Shown: piece after piece, positions 6,024-24,389 of the stretch
Position numbering within the stretch: position 1 is the first letter of the stretch
Layout: the number at the start of each line of letters is the position of its first letter
Notes under the pieces: model-generated
The model's database searches: none
What the model saw: the letters and a program-made list of their open reading frames with translations, nothing else
Told to the model about the DNA's origin: nothing
Translations under genes and position numbers: made by a program
Source: a virus
DNA: 27,710 nt
Virus record (IMG/VR): IMGVR_UViG_3300032288_003711
Location: 1-27,710 of that record
Reading direction: 5' to 3' (one strand)

Positions 6024-6866
6024 ATGTCTTGGTATAACGATGACGCTGCTTTCAATGACACCAAAGACTACGGCCCACGCCGCTTTTGGATGCCGAACAA
6101 CTCTGAGCGCAAGATCACTATCGTGGACGCTCCCAACATCACGCTCAACGGCGTGCAGGTCAAGACCCCGTTTCAGTTCCAAGAGTACAACATCCAACTC
6201 AACGGACATTGGCGAAACTGGTTCACCCGTCACCCCAACGCCTCCGAGGACTTGTTGGCTGAGATGGGTCACAAGGCTTCTCGCGTGGCGGTGTTCACCG
6301 TCATTGACCACAACGAGTACACCGACAAGAAGGGCATCGTCCATAAGGACAAGACCTGCGTCTATGTGATCAAGCGCAGCCTCCCCATCTTCCCCATGTG
6401 GGAGCGCGCGATGGCTCGCTTCGGGTCGCTTCAGGGCAAGACCTTCCTCATCTCGCGCATGGGCGACAAGTCGTCTGGCTGTGGTAGCGTCATTGAGCGC
6501 GTGGAGGATTGGCAAGGCTTCAACCCCTCCACCCATCAGCCACTCAACTATCTTGAGTTGTTCGCGCCTAAGTCGCGTGAGGAGTTGACCGCGCTCTTGG
6601 GCAACTCAGAGCAAGGCGACAACGGCTCTTGGGGAGGCGGTTCATCTTCTATGGGCGCACCTCAGCAGTCTGCACCTCAGCAGGGCGGGTGGAACGCAAA
6701 CCAAAGGACAGCGCCTCAGCAGAACAACGGCGGATGGAACGCACCTCAGCAGTCAGCCCCTCAGCAGGGCGGGTGGAATAATCAGCAGAACCACGGCGGT
6801 GGCTGGAACGGCCCTCCTCCTCCTAACGGCGGGTGGGGCAACAGCGACAGCAAGGTTCCGTTCTAA
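6024..6866 (+). CDS. ssb: phage single-stranded DNA-binding protein with Q/G/W/N-rich tail
   Basis: 280 residues, ribosome site AGGAGG. Residues ~15-190 form the core (RRFWMPNNSERKITIVD, LNGHWRNWFT, VAVFTVIDHNEYTDKKG, ERVEDWQGFNP), like phage SSBs of the T4 gp32-like kind that I know from other phages, but without the usual zinc cysteines. Residues ~200-270 are a flexible linker rich in Gln, Gly, Trp and Asn, with a 28-residue direct repeat. The protein ends in SDSKVPF, resembling the SSB tip (DDDIPF) that recruits polymerase, primase and nucleases, though less acidic. It has its own promoter, fitting high expression. Confidence 0.85.
   Translation: MSWYNDDAAFNDTKDYGPRRFWMPNNSERKITIVDAPNITLNGVQVKTPFQFQEYNIQLNGHWRNWFTRHPNASEDLLAEMGHKASRVAVFTVIDHNEYTDKKGIVHKDKTCVYVIKRSLPIFPMWERAMARFGSLQGKTFLISRMGDKSSGCGSVIERVEDWQGFNPSTHQPLNYLELFAPKSREELTALLGNSEQGDNGSWGGGSSSMGAPQQSAPQQGGWNANQRTAPQQNNGGWNAPQQSAPQQGGWNNQQNHGGGWNGPPPPNGGWGNSDSKVPF
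6658..6783 (+). repeat. 84-bp direct repeat inside the ssb tail
   Basis: CCTCAGCAGTC starting at 6660 recurs at 6744, with the following bases up to the GGCGGGTGGAA element nearly identical. The 84-bp period equals 28 residues (APQQSAPQQGGWN start) and keeps the frame, so the linker length can change by slippage or recombination without breaking the gene. Confidence 0.7.
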
Positions 6867-15100: not shown

Positions 15101-16444
15101 ATGAATATCTACCTAAGCGGGATCACAAGGGACGAGAACTACGAGGTCTTAGAGGGCATCAGCGCAGCGCCTCTGGTGATTGACTACTCCTACACCAAGA
15201 CGCGCGACCGCGCCCTCCTAGAGCGTCTGAGGGAGAGCCGCAGACTCATGGCGCACATAGACACCTTGAAGATGGAGGCGGCGTGTGAGCGCGCAGGCGC
15301 AGCTGCTCAAGCGTCAAAACTCAATCACATGATGGAGCAGTACGCTGAGTGGGCGCATCAAAATCTTGACCTACTTGACCTCGTGATCTGTCCACAACCG
15401 AAGGTCAACGGCTGTTATTGGGAGTTCTCAGATGCGGTTAAGGCGAAGGGCATCTACAGCGTCAAGACCGCCACGCGCGCAGAGGCGCTCTCAGCCCTTG
15501 AGGAGTATCTGCTGATAACCACTCTGGGCGAGATGCCCGCCACCGATATGCGCGCCATCAATACAGCCACAGGGCGCGCGTGCTTCCATACCCACGCCTC
15601 CATCACCAAAGATGAAGTGATGAGTGGCCTGTATGCTTCAGGCGCGACCTCTAGTTGGCTGAGTGGCGCTAAGTTCGGCAACACCTACGAGTATGTGGGC
15701 GCTCTCAAGATGACCACACACCACGGCTCTAAGGGCAGCGGCAAGGCTGTGCGCGATCACCTCAAGGGCAAGTGCGCGCGCCTCGGGATTGACCACTCTC
15801 TGCTCATGCAGGACGACAGGCTCACCGTCAACACATGGAACGCCCATCAGTGGATCCTGTTCATCAACGATGCCGCCCCCTCATCCGCGCTCACGGTACA
15901 GGCAGACACTTTTCAACAACTTTCAGAGGATGACCTCACCCTCGCTGTAAGTACCTCAAACGCCTTAACAACTCCGCAACAACAGCCCACAACCCTTGCA
16001 ACCCAAGAGGCGGGTGGAGCATATCTGAGGGTCTGCAACTCGTGCTTCTTGAGCGCCACCTGCCCCGCCTACAAGCCCGATGCGAACTGCTCAGTCTCTA
16101 CACGCCCGCGCGTAGATACCCCAGAGGACTTACAGCAACTCCTCAACCGAGTCATAGAGATACAGGGCGAGCGCGTCATGTTCTCCGCCTTCGCTGAGAA
16201 GAACCAGAACATGGGACTCAACCCCGATGTCTCTAGAGAGATACAGACCCTCACCAAAATCGTGAAAGAAGCGAAGGAAATCATGGCCCCCATCTCTGAG
16301 GAAATCACCATCAAGGCGCGCGGGCCAAGCGTGATGAATAGTCTGTTCGGCGGCTACGGCAGAGCAGGTGGAGGGGGCGGGTCTAAGCCCTCTCAGTCAG
16401 AAGCGATTATTGATGTCTCACCATTGGATGTTAAGAAAAAATGA
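15101..16444 (+). CDS. large two-part phage protein with C-terminal cysteine cluster
   Basis: 447 residues, GGAG six bases upstream. N-terminal ~120 residues (MNIYLSGITRDENYEVLEGI, PLVIDYSYTK, HQNLDLLDLVICPQ) remind me of alpha/beta barrel starts in phage TGT/DpdA-like proteins, but I see no catalytic residues and hold this lightly. A basic glycine-rich stretch (HHGSKGSGK) lies near 235. The C-terminal part has a Cys cluster (RVCNSCFLSATCPAY, then Cys after DAN), followed by a helical segment (VIEIQGERVMFSAF, SREIQTLTKIVKEAKEIM), a module I recall from other phages. A Gly-rich linker ends the protein. Function unknown. It overlaps nrdA through ATGA. Confidence 0.75.
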   Translation: MNIYLSGITRDENYEVLEGISAAPLVIDYSYTKTRDRALLERLRESRRLMAHIDTLKMEAACERAGAAAQASKLNHMMEQYAEWAHQNLDLLDLVICPQPKVNGCYWEFSDAVKAKGIYSVKTATRAEALSALEEYLLITTLGEMPATDMRAINTATGRACFHTHASITKDEVMSGLYASGATSSWLSGAKFGNTYEYVGALKMTTHHGSKGSGKAVRDHLKGKCARLGIDHSLLMQDDRLTVNTWNAHQWILFINDAAPSSALTVQADTFQQLSEDDLTLAVSTSNALTTPQQQPTTLATQEAGGAYLRVCNSCFLSATCPAYKPDANCSVSTRPRVDTPEDLQQLLNRVIEIQGERVMFSAFAEKNQNMGLNPDVSREIQTLTKIVKEAKEIMAPISEEITIKARGPSVMNSLFGGYGRAGGGGGSKPSQSEAIIDVSPLDVKKK

Positions 16445-18165
16445 GCGACCTAAACCCACCAAACAACGGCTTTCAGTTCTCAGACCACGCGCTCTCTCTG
16501 CTAGAGAACTACTACATGAACCAGAGCGAGAAGCCCACAGAGGCTCTACGGCGCGCGGCTTACGCCTACGCCAACAACCCCGCCCTCGCAGAGCGCGTCT
16601 ATCAGTACGCCCTCAACGGCTGGTTCATGTTCTCCTCGCCCATACTCTCAAACGCAGGGAGGACAGGTATGCCCATCTCCTGCTTCCTCACCTATGTGGA
16701 CGACACCATTGAGGGACTCCTGAGCCACACCAATGAACTCCGCATGATGAGCGTGATCGGTGGGGGTGTGGGTGGTCATTGGAGCGATGTGCGCGCTGTC
16801 TCCAAGAAGGCTCCAGGGCCTATCCCCTTCCTCAAGACTGTGGACGCAGATGTGGTGGCGTATCGTCAAGGGAGCGTGCGCCGTGGCTCCTACGCCGCCT
16901 ACATAGACATCAGCCACCCAGACATCTTGGAGTTCGCCTCTATACGCCTCCCCACAGGCGGTGACCCCAACCGCAAGTGCTTCAACCTGCACAACGCCAT
17001 CAACATCTCAGATGAGTTTATGCAGGCTGTGGTGAACGGCGCTCAGTGGAACCTCATTGACCCTCACTCCAAAGAGGTGCGCGACACCGTTGACGCGCGC
17101 GAACTCTGGCAGAGGCTGTTGGAGATCCGCTTCCGCACAGGTGAGCCTTACCTGTGCTTTATTGACACCGCCAACCGCGCCCTCCCTCAGAGCCTCAAGG
17201 ATAAGGGGCTGCGTATCAACGGCTCCAACCTCTGCTCTGAGATATTCCTCCCCACCGCCGCTGATCGCTCCGCTGTGTGCTGTCTCAGTTCTGTCAATGT
17301 GGAGAGGTTTGATGATTGGTGCGACACCAACATGGTCAGCGACCTCATAGAGTTCCTAGACGATGTGTTGCAATACTTCATTGACCACGCCCCCAAGAGC
17401 CTCGCGCGCGCTATCTACAGCGCCTCACGCGAGCGTTCTCTCGGTCTAGGCGCGATGGGGTTCCACGCCTATCTCCAGAGCCGTATGATCCCCTTTGAGG
17501 GCCTCTACGCCACCATACAGAACCACCGCATATTCAGCACCATCAAGAGGCAGGCAGAGGAGGCTTCGCGCCGACTCGCCCTCACCCGTGGCGAGTACCC
17601 TGACGGCATCGGCACAGGGCTACGCAACGCACATCTGCTCGCCATAGCGCCTAACAGCAACAGCGCGGTGCTTATGGACACCTCCCCGTCTATTGAGCCG
17701 TGGAAGTCTAACTCATACACACACCGCACACGCGCTGGAGCCTTCCGCACCGACAACCCCTATCTGGTGAGACTGCTCAAGACTAAAGAGGGGGTATCGG
17801 TGGAGGAGGTGATGGACAGCGTAGTCTTGAACGGAGGGTCTGTTCAGCACCTGTCGTGCTTGACAGACGATGAGAAGGCGGTGTTTAAGACCGCCTTTGA
17901 GATTGACCAGATGTGGCTTGTGGAACACGCCTCAGAGCGCCAAGAGTACATCTGCCAGGGACAGAGCCTTAACCTGTTCTTCCCCTTCGGAACCGACAAG
18001 AACTATGTGAACGCCGTCCACCTCTCAGCGTGGCGCAAGGGCCTCAAGAGCGTCTATTACTTACGCACAGAGGCTAATAAGACAGCTGAGAAGGTGAGCG
18101 AAAAGGTAGAGCGCAAGCCGCTCAAAGACTACGCCATAGAGGAGTGCCTATCATGTCAAGGCTAG
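16441..18165 (+). CDS. nrdA: ribonucleotide reductase, class I, large (alpha) subunit
   Basis: 574 residues, shorter than NrdA (761) or NrdE (~715), mainly because the ATP-cone domain is missing; dATP inhibition through that domain is therefore unlikely. Catalytic residues: Cys81 in GMPISCF, Asn263-Cys265-Glu267 in SNLCSEI, and the second redox Cys at 280/281 in AVCCLSS. The loop NSNSAVLMDTSPSIEPW is typical. The C-terminus is ECLSCQG, giving the Cys569/Cys572 pair that passes electrons from thioredoxin or glutaredoxin. The radical chain is completed by the small subunit, which starts inside this gene. Confidence 0.95.
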   Translation: MSDLNPPNNGFQFSDHALSLLENYYMNQSEKPTEALRRAAYAYANNPALAERVYQYALNGWFMFSSPILSNAGRTGMPISCFLTYVDDTIEGLLSHTNELRMMSVIGGGVGGHWSDVRAVSKKAPGPIPFLKTVDADVVAYRQGSVRRGSYAAYIDISHPDILEFASIRLPTGGDPNRKCFNLHNAINISDEFMQAVVNGAQWNLIDPHSKEVRDTVDARELWQRLLEIRFRTGEPYLCFIDTANRALPQSLKDKGLRINGSNLCSEIFLPTAADRSAVCCLSSVNVERFDDWCDTNMVSDLIEFLDDVLQYFIDHAPKSLARAIYSASRERSLGLGAMGFHAYLQSRMIPFEGLYATIQNHRIFSTIKRQAEEASRRLALTRGEYPDGIGTGLRNAHLLAIAPNSNSAVLMDTSPSIEPWKSNSYTHRTRAGAFRTDNPYLVRLLKTKEGVSVEEVMDSVVLNGGSVQHLSCLTDDEKAVFKTAFEIDQMWLVEHASERQEYICQGQSLNLFFPFGTDKNYVNAVHLSAWRKGLKSVYYLRTEANKTAEKVSEKVERKPLKDYAIEECLSCQG

Positions 18166-19121
18166 ACCAATACAGCACAGCCTATAAGCCCTTCACCGCC
18201 CCGTGGGCGATGCAGGCAGCAGAGGCTCACGAGAAAGCCCATTGGGGCGAGTGGGAGGTTCGCCTCCAAGAAGATGTCGCGCAGTGGAAGGGATCCACCA
18301 TCTCCGCTGAGGAGAAGGATCATATCACCCAAATCCTCCGCATATTCACGCAGTCTGACTGCGCGGTGGCTTCAAACTACTGCGACATCTTTATCCCCTA
18401 CTTCAAGAACAACGAGATCAGGAATATGCTCCTCTCGTTCGCCAACCGAGAGGGGACGCATCAGCGCGCATACAGCCTGCTCAACGATACTCTGGGCATG
18501 GGTGAGGGCGAGTACAGCGCCTTCCTCAAACTCTCTCAGATGAGAGATAAGATCGCGTTTATGGTGACCCCCGCTGAGACTCCCTCTAACGACCAAGAGC
18601 GCATCAGTTTTGAACTCGCGCGGTCGGTCTGCAACGAGGGCATGAGCCTGTTCAGCGCCTTTGTGATGCTCCTCAACTATCAACGCTTCGGCAAGATGCG
18701 CGGGATGTGTGAGGTGGTGGAGTGGTCTATCAGAGACGAAACGATGCACATTGAGGGCATGACCAAACTGTTCCACGCCTTCGTGGAGGAGAACCCCTCA
18801 GTCGTCACCGATAACCTCAAAGCCTTCATCTATCGCAACTACACCACAGCCGTCAGCCTAGAGTTCGCTCTGATTGACCTGGTGTATGACGGCGCGCAGG
18901 TCATCTGCGACCTCGCAGCTGAAGATGTGAAGCAGTATGTGAAGTACCTCGCCGACCGCCGCCTGCTCCAACTTGGACTGAAGCCTATCTTCAACCAAAA
19001 GGACAACCCCCTCAAGTGGGTGGATTGGATCGTAAGTGGAGACAGTATGAAGAACTTTTTTGAGGGTGTCGTGACTTCATACTCAACGGACGGCATGACA
19101 GGGGATTGGGGCTGGGACTAA
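18153..19121 (+). CDS. nrdB: ribonucleotide reductase, class I, small (beta) subunit
   Basis: 322 residues from ATG 18153 (AGGAG eight bases upstream, in the end of nrdA; a GTG at 18144 is less likely). Metal ligands line up with E. coli NrdB: Asp69, Glu100, His103, Glu162, Glu196 and His199, and the radical Tyr is Tyr107 in REGTHQRAY. It overlaps nrdA by 13 bases. The last ~90 bases use codons unlike the rest (AGT, TTT TTT, ACT TCA), and the final peptide SYSTDGMTGDWGWD has a near copy at 20430-20466, after the homing endonuclease. This suggests the 3' end was replaced when the endonuclease arrived. Confidence 0.95.
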   Translation: MSRLDQYSTAYKPFTAPWAMQAAEAHEKAHWGEWEVRLQEDVAQWKGSTISAEEKDHITQILRIFTQSDCAVASNYCDIFIPYFKNNEIRNMLLSFANREGTHQRAYSLLNDTLGMGEGEYSAFLKLSQMRDKIAFMVTPAETPSNDQERISFELARSVCNEGMSLFSAFVMLLNYQRFGKMRGMCEVVEWSIRDETMHIEGMTKLFHAFVEENPSVVTDNLKAFIYRNYTTAVSLEFALIDLVYDGAQVICDLAAEDVKQYVKYLADRRLLQLGLKPIFNQKDNPLKWVDWIVSGDSMKNFFEGVVTSYSTDGMTGDWGWD

Positions 19122-19140
19122 AAGGCCGATCAGCAGGCGG

Positions 19141-19155
19141 ATTTACAATGTAAAT
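19141..19155. other. palindrome ATTTAC-AAT-GTAAAT upstream of the homing endonuclease
   Basis: A perfect 6-bp inverted repeat with a three-base centre (19141-19155), in the 98-base gap after nrdB, which is more A+T-rich than the surrounding DNA. It may be an operator or leader hairpin of the endonuclease. No convincing promoter hexamer pair was found. Confidence 0.4.
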
Positions 19156-19219
19156 ACTACTTGTAGAACTGTACATATCATGGCACCATCCCCAATAACT
19201 TCTTTGAAAGGGGCTGACC

Positions 19220-20296
19220 ATGAAGTGTTCGCACTATGTGTACCGCCAAGTAAATAAGGCTACAGGCGAGTATTATATCGGGAAAGGGACTTACTCTGCG
19301 CGGGATCCAGATGGGAGCAAGTATAAGGGGTCTGGCATACTGCTTCTCCGCAAAATGAGCGCACACCCTTATGACTTTGAAAAGATTATATTAAAGGAGT
19401 TTGAGTCTGAGCAGGACGCATATGAATACGAGCGCGCTATGGTGGGTGAGATGTATATTGGCGGTAGAGATCACGATCCCCTGTGCTTAAACATGAATAG
19501 CGGGGGTATGGGCACATCTTCCGACTTCATGCGGAACTATTATCGCAACCATCGCCATAGGCAGGAGCGTTCTATTGAGTCAAAGAGAAGATGGGAGCGC
19601 GCAGAGTATAGGATCAAACTGAGGGCTTCTCAGGCCCTAGTAAGGGATCAGAGGATAAAAAGGTTAAAAGAAACAATGAGCAGACCTGATGTGCAGGCAA
19701 AGATTAAAGACGGTTATAAATGCCCTATTAGGAGGGCCAAGTTGCGCGAGAAGGCCAAGCCATCTACGCTAAATATAGAGCGTGATGGGCACACAATATC
19801 CATCCCATATGGCCACCTGCGCGACTACCTTGTTCTCGGCTGGGCGCTGTGTTCAAAAGGCGTGGTCAACATACACCGCTCCGACATAGGCGTTTATTCC
19901 TGTGGTCAACACGATGTCGTAAAGCATCTAATCGTGGAGCATGGCTTCGTATTCGGGACAAACTTTGCGCTCAATCGTGTGACATACGACACAATATCTA
20001 AACTGAGCGGAGTGAAAGAAGCAAAGGCTAAGGGGCAGATGGATAAATGGTCGTGCAAGCCCGTGGTTTTAGTTGACCCAGAAGGGCAAGAGGAGGCTGT
20101 ACCTCGCCACGAGTATTTAGACCGACTAGAGAACGGATACATATTTAAGAGCGCAAGCGTTCAAGTTAGAAACCATAAACTGAAGCAGACTGCACTTGTA
20201 AGCAGAGCGAGGGCGAAGGCATTACTAGTCCTGAGAGGGGATTGGGAGTTGGGGAGCAAAAGGGGCTACCGTGCGGTGAGCGCCAAATCGGTTTGA
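19220..20296 (+). CDS. GIY-YIG homing endonuclease (Seg-like)
   Basis: 358 residues, AAAGGGG upstream of ATG 19220. The N-terminal ~95 residues are a GIY-YIG nuclease: YVYR at 6-9, YYIGKGT at 18-24, and KYKGSG and EYERAMVGE downstream for the Arg/Glu side of the site. A basic helical stretch follows (RHRQERSIESKRRWERAEYR, REKAKPST), then a C-terminal half that probably binds DNA. Codon use is looser and A+T-richer than its neighbours, a sign of recent arrival. It lies between nrdB and a leftover nrdB 3' end, so its target is probably the nrdB end. An intron is not needed, because nrdB reads through to its own stop. Confidence 0.9.
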   Translation: MKCSHYVYRQVNKATGEYYIGKGTYSARDPDGSKYKGSGILLLRKMSAHPYDFEKIILKEFESEQDAYEYERAMVGEMYIGGRDHDPLCLNMNSGGMGTSSDFMRNYYRNHRHRQERSIESKRRWERAEYRIKLRASQALVRDQRIKRLKETMSRPDVQAKIKDGYKCPIRRAKLREKAKPSTLNIERDGHTISIPYGHLRDYLVLGWALCSKGVVNIHRSDIGVYSCGQHDVVKHLIVEHGFVFGTNFALNRVTYDTISKLSGVKEAKAKGQMDKWSCKPVVLVDPEGQEEAVPRHEYLDRLENGYIFKSASVQVRNHKLKQTALVSRARAKALLVLRGDWELGSKRGYRAVSAKSV

Positions 20297-20364
20297 TGTT
20301 GCTAGGTGCTTCATCTTCTGATTTATCTAAAGGCGCGCAAAGAGAACGCGCAAGACACTAAAAC

Positions 20365-20383
20365 CAAACCGACCAGCGGTTTG
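20365..20383. other. hairpin CAAACCG/CGGTTTG in the gap after the homing endonuclease
   Basis: A 7-bp stem (20365-20371 with 20377-20383) and a five-base ACCAG loop. A weaker GCGCG/CGCGC stem lies just upstream (20333-20337/20347-20351). CGGTTTG also occurs at 20289-20295 overlapping the endonuclease stop, so the left arm could pair with either copy. No T-tract follows, so termination is doubtful; RNA folding control is possible. Confidence 0.45.
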
Positions 20384-20409
20384 CACCTCATAGAGCGAGG
20401 CTATTTAAT

Positions 20410-20469
20410 ATGAGCATGATGGATACACCCTACTCAACAAACGGCATGACAGGAGAGTGGGAGTGGTGA
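20410..20469 (+). pseudogene. nrdB: remnant of the nrdB 3' end, readable as a 19-residue mini-ORF
   Basis: From 20430 the DNA encodes PYSTNGMTGEWEW and a stop (20467-20469), matching the present nrdB C-terminus SYSTDGMTGDWGWD at 10 of 13 shared positions or with conservative changes. At DNA level about 30 of 36 bases match. An ATG at 20410 makes a 19-residue frame. The stop overlaps the GTG start of the next gene (GTGA), with AGGAG ten bases upstream, so the remnant still holds the signals that coupled the original nrdB to its downstream neighbour. Confidence 0.75.
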
Positions 20470-20726
20470 CTAAGAAGGCGAGACTCCGTACAGCGCCCAA
20501 TCGTATCCGCACTAATAAATGCTTTAAGCGTGTATTTAGGCGTGGCCCTATCGCTGACTGCGACAGCGCGATTGTGTCCATAACACCTGACGGAGTCTAT
20601 CTGTATGAGTATTGGGGGCTCGTAGAGTGCTTTCAAAACACTATGGGGTCTGAGAACGCACAGGAGTGGGTTGACTTCAATATCGTCAGACTCAAAAACG
20701 CTGCTATCGTGTACAAGTCGCTTTAA
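20466..20726 (+). CDS. small basic protein of unknown function
   Basis: 86 residues from GTG 20466, overlapping the stop of the nrdB remnant; AGGAG at 20451-20455. Residues 1-30 are strongly basic (TKKARLRTAPNRIRTNKCFK); the rest alternates strands and helices (AIVSITPDGVYLYEYWGLVE). Codon use is relaxed, like the endonuclease region. No known family. Its original coupling to nrdB suggests it belonged to the RNR operon before the endonuclease arrived. Confidence 0.65.
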   Translation: MTKKARLRTAPNRIRTNKCFKRVFRRGPIADCDSAIVSITPDGVYLYEYWGLVECFQNTMGSENAQEWVDFNIVRLKNAAIVYKSL

Positions 20727-21627: not shown

Positions 21628-22500
21628 ATGGATCAAATCAAAGAGGTCATTGTCTCCTCTGCGCTTATTGACGAACTCTACAAGCGCGGCTCAGTCTCCA
21701 CCCCTAGCCATGTTCAATGTATGGGCTGGTTCCTGATCCTCAAGTCGGACTGTGGCAAGAGCGCCCTCGCTGCCTATCAAGGCGATACCCTCGTCTTAGT
21801 GAGTGGCAAGGCTCTCAAGACACAGAACATCTCGCCCAAAGACGCAGGGCAGACCTGCCTCATGTGGGCGTTGGATGAGTACGACATGGTGATCGCTGTG
21901 GGCGGTGCAGGCACAGGTAAGACCACCGTGGCTCTAGCGTGGGCCGTCAACCAGATGATGAAGCACAACAAGCGCATCATCCTCTGTAAGCCCACTCACT
22001 TTGTGGGCGGTAAGAGCAACGCTATCGCCGCCATACCTGGCACGCACAGGGAGAAGCTAGAAGGCTACATTGACAGTTATCTAGGCGCTCTCCGCAAGAT
22101 CATGGGCGACAACTACCTTGAGTACCTCCGCACTCTTGAGGAGTCGGGTAAGGTGATATTTCAGCCTCTTGAACTCCTGCGCGGGCTAGACTTTGAGAAC
22201 TCGGTGGTGATTATTGATGAGGCTCAGAACACCACCCCACACGACCTGATGAGCGCCATCTCGCGCGTAGGGCAGGCTTCCACCTGCATCGTCTTGGGCG
22301 ACCCCCGACAGGTGGATATTGACCTGCACCCCTCAGAGACAGGGCTGGCTGTGCTTCTCAACTCTGAGGCGATGAAGTACACCGAGATCGCCTGCGCGGT
22401 GCGCCTCAACGGACAGTACAGAGGGCCTCTCGCCACCCTCGCAGCTGAGGTCTTGGAGGAGTTCTACGCTGAGGAGGAGTTAGAGGAGGAGGAGCCTTAA
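21628..22500 (+). CDS. phoH: PhoH-like P-loop ATPase
   Basis: 290 residues, GGAGG upstream. GGAGTGKT (92-99) is Walker A, VVIIDEAQNTTPHDL (about 193-207) is Walker B with the PhoH-typical NTTP, and IVLGDPRQVDID is the downstream motif. ELLRGLDFEN replaces the usual RGRTL segment. The first ~60 residues are outside the ATPase. Phage PhoH is common but its role is unclear; an RNA helicase-like or stress-linked NTPase role has been proposed. The acidic tail (EEFYAEEELEEEEP) is unusual. The stop overlaps tail-to-tail with the reverse-strand gene through the palindrome TTAA. Confidence 0.92.
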   Translation: MDQIKEVIVSSALIDELYKRGSVSTPSHVQCMGWFLILKSDCGKSALAAYQGDTLVLVSGKALKTQNISPKDAGQTCLMWALDEYDMVIAVGGAGTGKTTVALAWAVNQMMKHNKRIILCKPTHFVGGKSNAIAAIPGTHREKLEGYIDSYLGALRKIMGDNYLEYLRTLEESGKVIFQPLELLRGLDFENSVVIIDEAQNTTPHDLMSAISRVGQASTCIVLGDPRQVDIDLHPSETGLAVLLNSEAMKYTEIACAVRLNGQYRGPLATLAAEVLEEFYAEEELEEEEP

Positions 22501-24389
22501 CCTTTCTGTGGCTTAGGTGCGGGCCAATAATCAAGATCGCCTTGATGGGCCACTTGGTCGCGCAGTTTATAGTTGGTGGATCCACCCTCTCGTACTTGTT
22601 TTACGCCACCGTCAGCCTCACAGGCTCTTGGGGTTTTCCACATCAACGCTTCGCTGTCCTCACCGCTCTTATCTGCGGTGTTCTTCTTGGGTAGGTAAGG
22701 GGGCGCATCAATAGGCTCAGGCCAATAGTCAAGACTGCCTTGATGTGCCACCTGATCACGCAACTTCAACTGCGCGGTGTCGTCTTTACGCACCTGCTTA
22801 ATACCGCCCTCAGCCTCCATTGTAGATGGAGTTTTCCACATAAGCGCGTGACTATCTCCTGTCACCGCTTCTAAGCGTAAAGGCATAGTGATGACGCTAC
22901 AAGAGGGCAAAGTCCACCCCACAGGCAAGCCCATCAATACCTCCACCCAACGAGGGTTCACAAAGCCTGTGTAGCCTGTCTCATGGTGAACCTGTCGGGG
23001 CATCGTATCATCTCTTGTCTTACCATCTTTACGGTCAGGATGAGGGCCGTGCATGGAAGCCTCCATGTAATCTCTAACGATTGGAGTCGTCCAAGCGACT
23101 CCACAGGACTCTGAAGGCTCGCTCTGCGGTGGCTGGGACAACTCCGTTTCCAAGAAGGCGCAACTCGTCTGCACGAGAGTCAAGGGAACTGCACAAGAGG
23201 GCATAGTCCACCCCACAGGCAGACCCATCAGTACCTCCACCCAACGGGGATTGAGTACCCGCTTCTCCTCTTTCATCACTTCCTGTGTCTGTGGATCCGC
23301 TGTCTCTTGGAGTGACTCGTGGGGGTTCCCAAGAGAACTGAGCGACTCCTCTACCTGCGGGCCAGAGTTCGCGCCGATACACAACAAGGGGTCTGCTATC
23401 TTCTCTGCATATTCCGCTAATATCGCAGCATCGCATAAGTTCATGCTGTGGCAAGTTGACCCCTCTTTGGCTCCTGCTCTCCGACCTGTCGGTGTCAATG
23501 TCATCTGAGGGTGAGCGTTCTCCTGTGTCGTAGGCGTGGGCCACAACTTGTCCATCTGCACTGCCACCGTCAGCGATGGCCCTCTGTTCTTGGCTGAGGG
23601 CTTCTGTGCGCGCGCAAAGTGCTGCTCCACTGTCTCGTGGATCTCTGAAGCCTTCGGCGTAGGCCACGGCTGTTCTATAACTTGAAGCCATAACGACTTC
23701 TGTGAACCGCCCTGCTCTATCTTTAGAGCCTTCTCCACATCTTTGTAGCGCATACGGTTCACTTCGCCTAATGTCGGCGTGCGCCAATAGTTCTCCAACT
23801 CTTGAGCGCCCTGCATCTGAGAGGTCTGCTCTGACACCAAGAATAAAGATGCGCTTCCGTTGGTGGGGCGCTCCGACTTCAGACGCTGAGAATACTCCTG
23901 CCGTTGTGCGATAACCCAGCCGCTCCAACTCTCTAAAGACATGGAGCAGAACGGGAGTTCCCTGTGGGTCTGACCAATCGTCTCCCTTGAGGTTGGAGGA
24001 GAGTATTCCTTCAACATTTTCAAAGAAAACAATGGGAGGTCGCTCCAACTCTCTGATGCCTCTGACAATGTGGGGCCACAGGTGTCGCTCGTCCTCGTCT
24101 CCTGCTTTTCTTCCTGCGGCACTAAATGGCTGACAAGGGAAGCCTCCAGAGATGATGTCCACTTTCCCACGAAACTCTGCCCACGGGAAGGTTTTAAGAT
24201 CCGTCCAGATAGGCGCGTTATCCAACCACCCCGCTTCAATCTTGCTGACCAGGTTCGTGCAGGCGAAGTCCCCGATTTCGCTATAAGCGACTGTGCGAAC
24301 ATCTCTGATAGCTCTTTTGAGTCCGAGGTCAATCCCTCCGTATCCACTGCAAAGGCTGATGTGTGTAAGGTCTTTGGTATGATCCACAT
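22497..24389 (-). CDS. overprinted WxTP-repeat protein, second frame of the methyltransferase locus
   Basis: 630 residues from ATG 24389. It covers the whole methyltransferase gene in another frame and runs 577 bases further, to a TAA shared with the phoH stop. It has six copies of W-x-T-P-x(3)-[E/D] (residues 202, 242, 283, 433, 518, 584), two of NPRWVEVLMGLPVGWT (380, 478) and two of LRDQVAHQG-x-LDYWP (543, 609). Between the two NPRWVE copies (20 codons) six bases differ: five are silent here, whereas all five affected codons change the residue in the methyltransferase frame. Between the two WKTP units about 15 codons differ silently. This is the mark of selected protein. I recall database proteins of this type near phage methyltransferases; function unknown. 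The N-terminal third is less certain. Confidence 0.65.
   Translation of the reverse strand: MWIIPKTLHTSAFAVDTEGLTSDSKELSEMFAQSLIAKSGTSPARTWSARLKRGGWITRLSGRILKPSRGQSFVGKWTSSLEASLVSHLVPQEEKQETRTSDTCGPTLSEASESWSDLPLFSLKMLKEYSPPTSRETIGQTHRELPFCSMSLESWSGWVIAQRQEYSQRLKSERPTNGSASLFLVSEQTSQMQGAQELENYWRTPTLGEVNRMRYKDVEKALKIEQGGSQKSLWLQVIEQPWPTPKASEIHETVEQHFARAQKPSAKNRGPSLTVAVQMDKLWPTPTTQENAHPQMTLTPTGRRAGAKEGSTCHSMNLCDAAILAEYAEKIADPLLCIGANSGPQVEESLSSLGNPHESLQETADPQTQEVMKEEKRVLNPRWVEVLMGLPVGWTMPSCAVPLTLVQTSCAFLETELSQPPQSEPSESCGVAWTTPIVRDYMEASMHGPHPDRKDGKTRDDTMPRQVHHETGYTGFVNPRWVEVLMGLPVGWTLPSCSVITMPLRLEAVTGDSHALMWKTPSTMEAEGGIKQVRKDDTAQLKLRDQVAHQGSLDYWPEPIDAPPYLPKKNTADKSGEDSEALMWKTPRACEADGGVKQVREGGSTNYKLRDQVAHQGDLDYWPAPKPQKG
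23074..24387 (-). CDS. DNA (cytosine-5) methyltransferase
   Basis: 437 residues from GTG 24387; GGGAG lies six bases upstream. Motif I is SLCSGYGGIDLGL (11-23), motif IV is GGFPCQPFSAAGRKAG with catalytic Cys85, motif VI is FENVEG (122-127), motif VIII is QRKRIFILG (176-184), and motif IX/X is LLGNGVVPATAERAF near the end. The target-recognition region (190-400) has [L/V]A-x-A-[D/E] repeats and WEPPR. The enzyme methylates C5 of cytosine, probably for restriction escape. GTG 24387 overlaps the ATG of the other frame (ATGTG), so one ribosome site could serve both. Confidence 0.93.
   Translation of the reverse strand: MDHTKDLTHISLCSGYGGIDLGLKRAIRDVRTVAYSEIGDFACTNLVSKIEAGWLDNAPIWTDLKTFPWAEFRGKVDIISGGFPCQPFSAAGRKAGDEDERHLWPHIVRGIRELERPPIVFFENVEGILSSNLKGDDWSDPQGTPVLLHVFRELERLGYRTTAGVFSASEVGAPHQRKRIFILGVRADLSDAGRSRVGELLAHADIRRSEPYALQRCGEGSKDRAGRFTEVVMASSYRTAVAYAEGFRDPRDSGAALCARTEALSQEQRAIADGGSADGQVVAHAYDTGERSPSDDIDTDRSESRSQRGVNLPQHELMRCCDISGICREDSRPLVVYRRELWPAGRGVAQFSWEPPRVTPRDSGSTDTGSDERGEAGTQSPLGGGTDGSACGVDYALLCSSLDSRADELRLLGNGVVPATAERAFRVLWSRLDDSNR

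Follow-up and report, generated by a model that had tools for sequence, protein, structure and literature searches.

Why should a phage carry the 3' end of its ribonucleotide reductase gene nrdB twice, once in place and once behind a neighboring endonuclease gene? We addressed this question in a 27,710-nt virus record (27.7 kb; IMG/VR IMGVR_UViG_3300032288_003711), the whole of which is referred to here as the window (Table 1). The explanation we judge best, at a probability of roughly two in three, is that the locus represents a homing cassette that replaces the tail of its target gene and leaves the old tail behind. The nrdB product has 577 relatives in IMG/VR and ends in SYSTDGMTGDWGWD. An initial reading from the letters alone (the sequence-only reading) had held the gene to be intact, and its full reading frame, recognized by Pfam, bears this out.

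Table 1. Features at the nrdB 3' end and its surroundings, in window coordinates
Feature	Position	Strand	Basis
nrdA, intact	16441-18165		
nrdB, class I ribonucleotide reductase small subunit, intact	18153-19121	+	Pfam PF00268, E 5e-64
S, nrdB stretch coding SMKNFFEG, putative source of the leader copy	19044-19067	+	sequence; always the nrdB segment matched by the leader
T, functional nrdB tail YSTDGMTGDWGWD plus stop	19080-19121	+	direct repeat D1; mildly atypical codons
Spacer, nrdB stop to endonuclease start, 98 bases, GC 0.44	19122-19219	+	
S', nrdB-like fragment, CCCC/GGGG hairpin before endonuclease start	19190-19213	+	12/14 nt; motif confinement; folds
Predicted GIY-YIG-type free-standing homing endonuclease gene, 358 codons	19220-20296	+	PHROG 314; relatives always behind nrdB; foreign codons, z -9.0
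Short open frame MSMMDTPYSTNGMTGEWEW, 19 codons, enclosing T'; putative coding frame	20410-20469	+	sequence
T', second nrdB tail copy with stop, proposed left-behind old tail	20431-20469	+	83% over 36 nt; 23.6 bits vs ≤11.2 elsewhere
Orphan gene, 86 codons, GTG start, four-base overlap with T' stop; proposed original nrdB neighbor	20466-20726	+	

The tail copy is a direct repeat of the nrdB end, with 83% identity over 36 nt (19080-19115 versus 20431-20466). It begins after a gap of ~130 bases behind the endonuclease gene, encodes (P)YSTNGMTGEWEW and ends with a TGA codon (20467-20469) that shares four bases with the GTG start at 20466. Both the duplication and the overlap of this stop with the next gene had been claimed at the outset; both are confirmed, and the coordinates given for the repeat were correct within one or two bases. 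With a profile built from 40 distinct nrdB tails, T' scores 23.6 bits, and the next-best downstream place in the window scores -2.2. The same profile gave a top score of 11.2 bits within 5 kb 3' of ~70 other nrdB genes; that is, nothing comparable to T' was detected over that distance in these related loci. T' is also the best second nrdB match inside the window by both blastn (E 4e-5; runner-up, 0.27) and tblastn (E 0.04; runner-up, 0.5). The repeat is well above chance. One other match, GGGATTGGG inside the endonuclease gene (20232-20246), was considered as a fossil tail and rejected, as it corresponds to DWELGS codons conserved in the endonuclease family.

A second case of an nrdB end behind the endonuclease was found in L086 (the same contig as L008), where the endonuclease frame runs into LDWSEIA and stops. 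The phage's own nrdB ends in GEWDWSEIA, and the DNA of the two ends is identical at 20/21 nt. The arrangement is therefore present in two diverged members, free in the window and fused to the endonuclease C terminus in L086. No T' copy was found behind the endonuclease in L082, L083, L084, and L088, and, given these four family haplotypes, T' would be either often lost or dispensable. Duplicated tails were likewise absent from the controls, namely, five endonuclease loci of isolated phages in which the upstream neighbor lies on the same strand and one HNH gene after nrdA; the nrdA-HNH-nrdB arrangement of L103 showed no second tail. Two tails in a phage lacking the endonuclease, which the sequence-only reading had named as fatal to its own proposal, occurred in none of the endonuclease-free relatives examined.

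For the gene between the tails, residues 1 to 147 of the product match PHROG 314 (homing endonuclease; E 9e-18), and the N terminus carries the GIY-YIG-like motif HYVY...YYIG, on which basis the enzyme is classed as a predicted GIY-YIG endonuclease. The Pfam match for the endonuclease of L088 reaches only E 0.013, below the cut-off, and the AlphaFold model of the window's endonuclease is poor (pLDDT, 52). Close relatives occur in ten IMG/VR records (54 to 64% identity over readable lengths), several of them on contigs spanning 226 to 376 kb; isolated phages and bacterial genome contigs yielded distant GIY-YIG relatives only. Including the window, the family comprises 11 records and 7 distinct sequences: L084 equals L085, L087 equals L088, L083 and L015 share their endonuclease, and L010 matches L011/L084 except for one distant base. 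The gene directly follows nrdB in 11/11 records and starts 72 to 87 nt after the nrdB stop in the ten relatives. With a gene of its own outside introns and inteins and one conserved site, the enzyme is, by all appearances, free-standing. The endonuclease tree came out unresolved, and pairwise and site-pattern tests were used in its place.

Several features of these loci are recorded here in their own right. The endonuclease genes of L008 and L009, otherwise 92 to 100% identical, contain a sharply divergent block (40 to 80%) at bases ~280 to 460, which suggests that a middle part has been swapped between enzymes. Behind the endonuclease of L084, the minus strand at ~6090 to 6300 encodes a Ser/Gly/Lys-rich repeat (SKSSSGSKGG type) that is absent at the same place in the other endonuclease-bearing loci. 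Farther downstream in the window, two long minus-strand frames (22497-24389 and 23074-24387) overlap on the same strand by ~1.3 kb; one encodes a cytosine-methyltransferase-like protein (PHROG 363, E 3e-52), the other a 630-aa protein (PHROG 1008, DNA methyltransferase, E 1e-19). The same overlapping pair is present in L011, with 40% and 36% identity in the two frames.

A further fragment of nrdB lies in front of the endonuclease. The core of this fragment, S' (AATAACTTCTTTGA, 19194-19207), is a leader copy of the nrdB FKNFFE(G) codons. It matches nrdB at 12/14 nt in the window (shuffle p 0.03), at 21/22 nt in L088, and at 17/18 nt in L086, and the other members show weaker matches (shuffle p 0.02 to 0.5). 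Across 11 phage records, the motif TTCAANAANTWCTTTGA has only nine occurrences. The five endonuclease-bearing records have one each in the leader, and the rest fit the nrdB FKNFFE codons (those in G007 and G011 being assigned to nrdB without a coordinate check). In both L086 and L088, the distance from the nrdB occurrence to the leader copy downstream is exactly 140 bases. The leader folds into a hairpin whose 3' arm contains the ribosome-binding purines; an RNA function has modest support, with one compensatory pair change only and a z of -1.1 for the window's own fold. Read in order, S', the endonuclease gene, and T' appear to constitute a second nrdB 3' end that is interrupted by the endonuclease and follows a complete first copy. 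The initial picture of a gene with a spare tail was right about the tail copy, missed S', and is better drawn as this split second copy.

The nrdB 3' end evidently moves with the endonuclease between related phages, as judged from two pairs. L083 and L015 differ at 18 positions (12.5%) in the first 144 comparable nt of nrdB and then at 0/1,027 nt, the identical stretch running through the final 213 nt of nrdB, across the spacer, and over 741 bases of the endonuclease gene; L083 begins just 430 nt before the endonuclease, and, these being metagenomic contigs, chimeric assembly is possible for L083. Between L008 and L009, nrdB identity is 87% in the core, 61% over 72 nt around the S/T junction, and 100% in the last 15 nt, and the endonuclease genes are 99% identical over the first 280 bases. 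The 72-base stretch, which lies at the FKNFFE codons within the last 150 bases of the L009 gene and has more conserved flanks, could represent a swapped target-site allele.

A third phage, L082, has mixed ancestry. Its nrdB is 95% like that of L015, yet its last 18 nt equal those of L011, whose core is only 77% alike; informative sites for affinity to L015 versus L011 split 191:17 in the body and 0:6 in the tail (p 8e-7). The tail end thus comes from an L011-like source and the endonuclease start is L015-like; the two need not be transferred together, and the exchange points vary. In L083/L015, L008/L009, and L082/L011, the 5' and 3' parts of nrdB appear to have different histories. In most close pairs, moreover, the endonuclease DNA is more alike than the nrdB core, as would be expected for horizontal spread.

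To decide which tail is native, a relative with an empty site would be most informative. No close endonuclease-free relative was found, and IMG/VR held no NrdB closer than ~72%. Queries with the gene at 20466, thyX, and a degenerate pattern of the nrdB-end/20466 junction retrieved no empty-site relative, two matches to the junction pattern being rejected as chance. As no such relative was found, the native and incoming tails can only be inferred. The hints favor T' as the old tail, namely, its stop/start overlap, its kept residues, and its host-like codons. A four-base stop/start overlap at the nrdB end is seen in 4/61 distinct relatives (L039, L050, L056, and L064). T' is undecayed and keeps the family-conserved residues, a fit that six random changes to T achieve in 2% of trials (p 0.02). 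Codon use deviates strongly in the endonuclease gene (z -9.0) and mildly in the nrdB tail (z -2.4), compared with a z of 0.2 for T' (few codons). The unlike codons that had been noted in the last ~90 bases of nrdB are thus real (p 0.018), but the signal is weak, as 5% of the genome's 30-codon windows are equally extreme. The gene at 20466, for which no relatives were found in IMG/VR or isolated phages, has codon use unlike the phage's main genes (z -3.3), and these atypical codons count against a clean old-tail picture for T'.

In the proposed mechanism, the cassette would consist of an intact nrdB with S and T, the spacer with the S' hairpin leader, the GIY-YIG endonuclease, and T', in this order. 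In a co-infecting phage, the endonuclease would cut an endonuclease-free nrdB near the S/T junction, S being the proposed vicinity of the presumed cleavage site. Break repair would then copy the donor's nrdB 3' end together with the endonuclease, as in the joint transfer seen in relatives. Were recombination to resolve within the homology of T, the recipient's old tail would end up behind the endonuclease as T'. In this way, nrdB would stay whole with a recoded, presumably resistant end, and T' would keep the old stop/start overlap with the gene at 20466 and, probably, the translational coupling. Such a tail replacement had been suggested by the sequence-only reading; it has gained the second case in L086, the constant position behind nrdB, and the joint transfer of the 3' end, whereas the empty site that it predicted was not found and its assignment of the native tail still rests on inference.

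A similar layout could have arisen if the nrdB 3' end and the start of the downstream gene had been duplicated in tandem, in the window lineage or its ancestor, with the endonuclease entering the spare copy and the tails diverging without any replacement. The close likeness of T and T' in the window would also fit such an in-place event, and we count it against the cassette; S', the endonuclease, and T' do read as a single split copy of the nrdB 3' end. The likeness of T and T' continues weakly beyond the stop (GACTAA-AAGGC; p 0.007 in random window pairs), and this possible extension would fit an old tandem duplication. Leftward, T' showed no similarity to the 5' side of S (p 0.61). An idle spare, however, would not be expected to hold family-fitting residues at 83% identity, and the nrdB 3' ends of relatives move with the endonuclease. 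On balance we regard duplication without replacement as unlikely, though the two models are compatible, and a duplication may have been the origin of the cassette.

An ordinary free-standing endonuclease, lodged between nrdB and the next gene and co-converting its flanks as in T4, would leave the tail copies to be explained as repair debris. Co-conversion of flanks is a familiar property of phage homing endonucleases (PMC2988022), and T' is missing in the four haplotypes named above. Against this, nrdB pieces flank the endonuclease in nrdB order in two diverged members and are lacking at the six control loci, which makes debris an improbable account. Alternatively, the 19-codon frame around T' might be expressed as a mimic of the NrdB C terminus that modulates ribonucleotide reductase. 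Peptides from the NrdB C terminus do compete for NrdA, and the frame has start codons and all family-conserved tail residues; its ribosome-binding site looks weak by eye, and the copy is fused to the endonuclease in L086 and absent in four members, so that we give a peptide mimic very little credence. Least credible of all is a self-splicing (group I) intron joining the nrdB body to T', with T read in unspliced RNA only: T' is still a good tail and the endonuclease sits between the copies, but T alone forms a complete, family-like end, and Rfam returned no intron either in the window, searched with gathering and permissive thresholds, or in five relatives, searched with the gathering threshold, in keeping with the initial judgment that no intron interrupts the intact nrdB.

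The cassette that we favor has counterparts outside phages. The WHO elements of Torulaspora and Lachancea, each defined as an endonuclease plus a replacement 3' end, give FBA1 a new 3' end, and the old one stays behind (Coughlan et al. 2020, eLife, PMC7282813). As in those yeasts, the endonuclease here lies behind an intact host gene (nrdB in place of FBA1) and is followed, in the window and L086, by a piece of that gene's 3' end; in L083/L015, L008/L009, and L082/L011, the 5' part of the host gene differs in history from its 3' part, again as in the yeasts (PMC7282813). However, WHO enzymes are HO/VDE-related, intein-derived proteins with zinc fingers, whereas the present enzyme is GIY-YIG by its PHROG match; membership in the WHO family was rejected because the enzyme type differs. 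In addition, WHO elements reside in yeast nuclear genomes, often in clusters, and their cleavage has been shown, while the phage genes occur as single copies and would encode a cleaving enzyme (PMC7282813). The nrdB cassette also differs in that its tail is only ~14 codons long and in that the fragment S' stands before the endonuclease gene as well.

Fungal mitochondria provide a second parallel, in the mobile open reading frames with inserted C termini of Allomyces macrogynus atp6 and of Glomus atp6, atp9, cox2, and nad3 (Beaudet et al. 2013, PMC3630166). There, an inserted C terminus fused to the host gene is followed by an endonuclease frame and then by the native C terminus, and the endonuclease of the Glomus atp9 element is GIY-YIG, as here (PMC3630166). 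These elements are mitochondrial, and the native end is recognized through near relatives without the insertion, none of which was found here (PMC3630166). Among phages, the T4-type free-standing endonucleases MobE and Hef target nrdB, and the Seg enzymes are GIY-YIG (PMC2988022). The present system resembles them in its free-standing enzyme, its presumed nrdB target, and flank co-conversion; MobE, however, is an HNH enzyme located between nrdA and nrdB, unlike the GIY-YIG gene after nrdB (PMC2988022). A word search of the T4 review found no mention of a duplicated target-gene end (PMC2988022), and word-matched searches of the open-licence literature retrieved no report of a phage tail-replacing homing element. 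What is new here would be the combination of phage, GIY-YIG enzyme, and nrdB, tail-replacing homing being already known from yeast and fungal mitochondria.

Beyond this locus, we lean slightly toward the view that GIY-YIG cassettes repeatedly rewrite the nrdB 3' end across distant phages, as a class convergent with WHO elements and fungal mobile frames, in which an nrdB fragment is reused as a leader hairpin. Phage crosses would make the tail-replacement model directly testable. If it is true, tail replacement exists in phages as it does in fungi, with an unrelated enzyme, and would explain why the ends of nrdB in these phages have histories that differ from the rest of the gene. It would also constitute a third strategy by which an element can live at an essential gene in the absence of splicing, namely, by replacing its end and leaving the old end behind.
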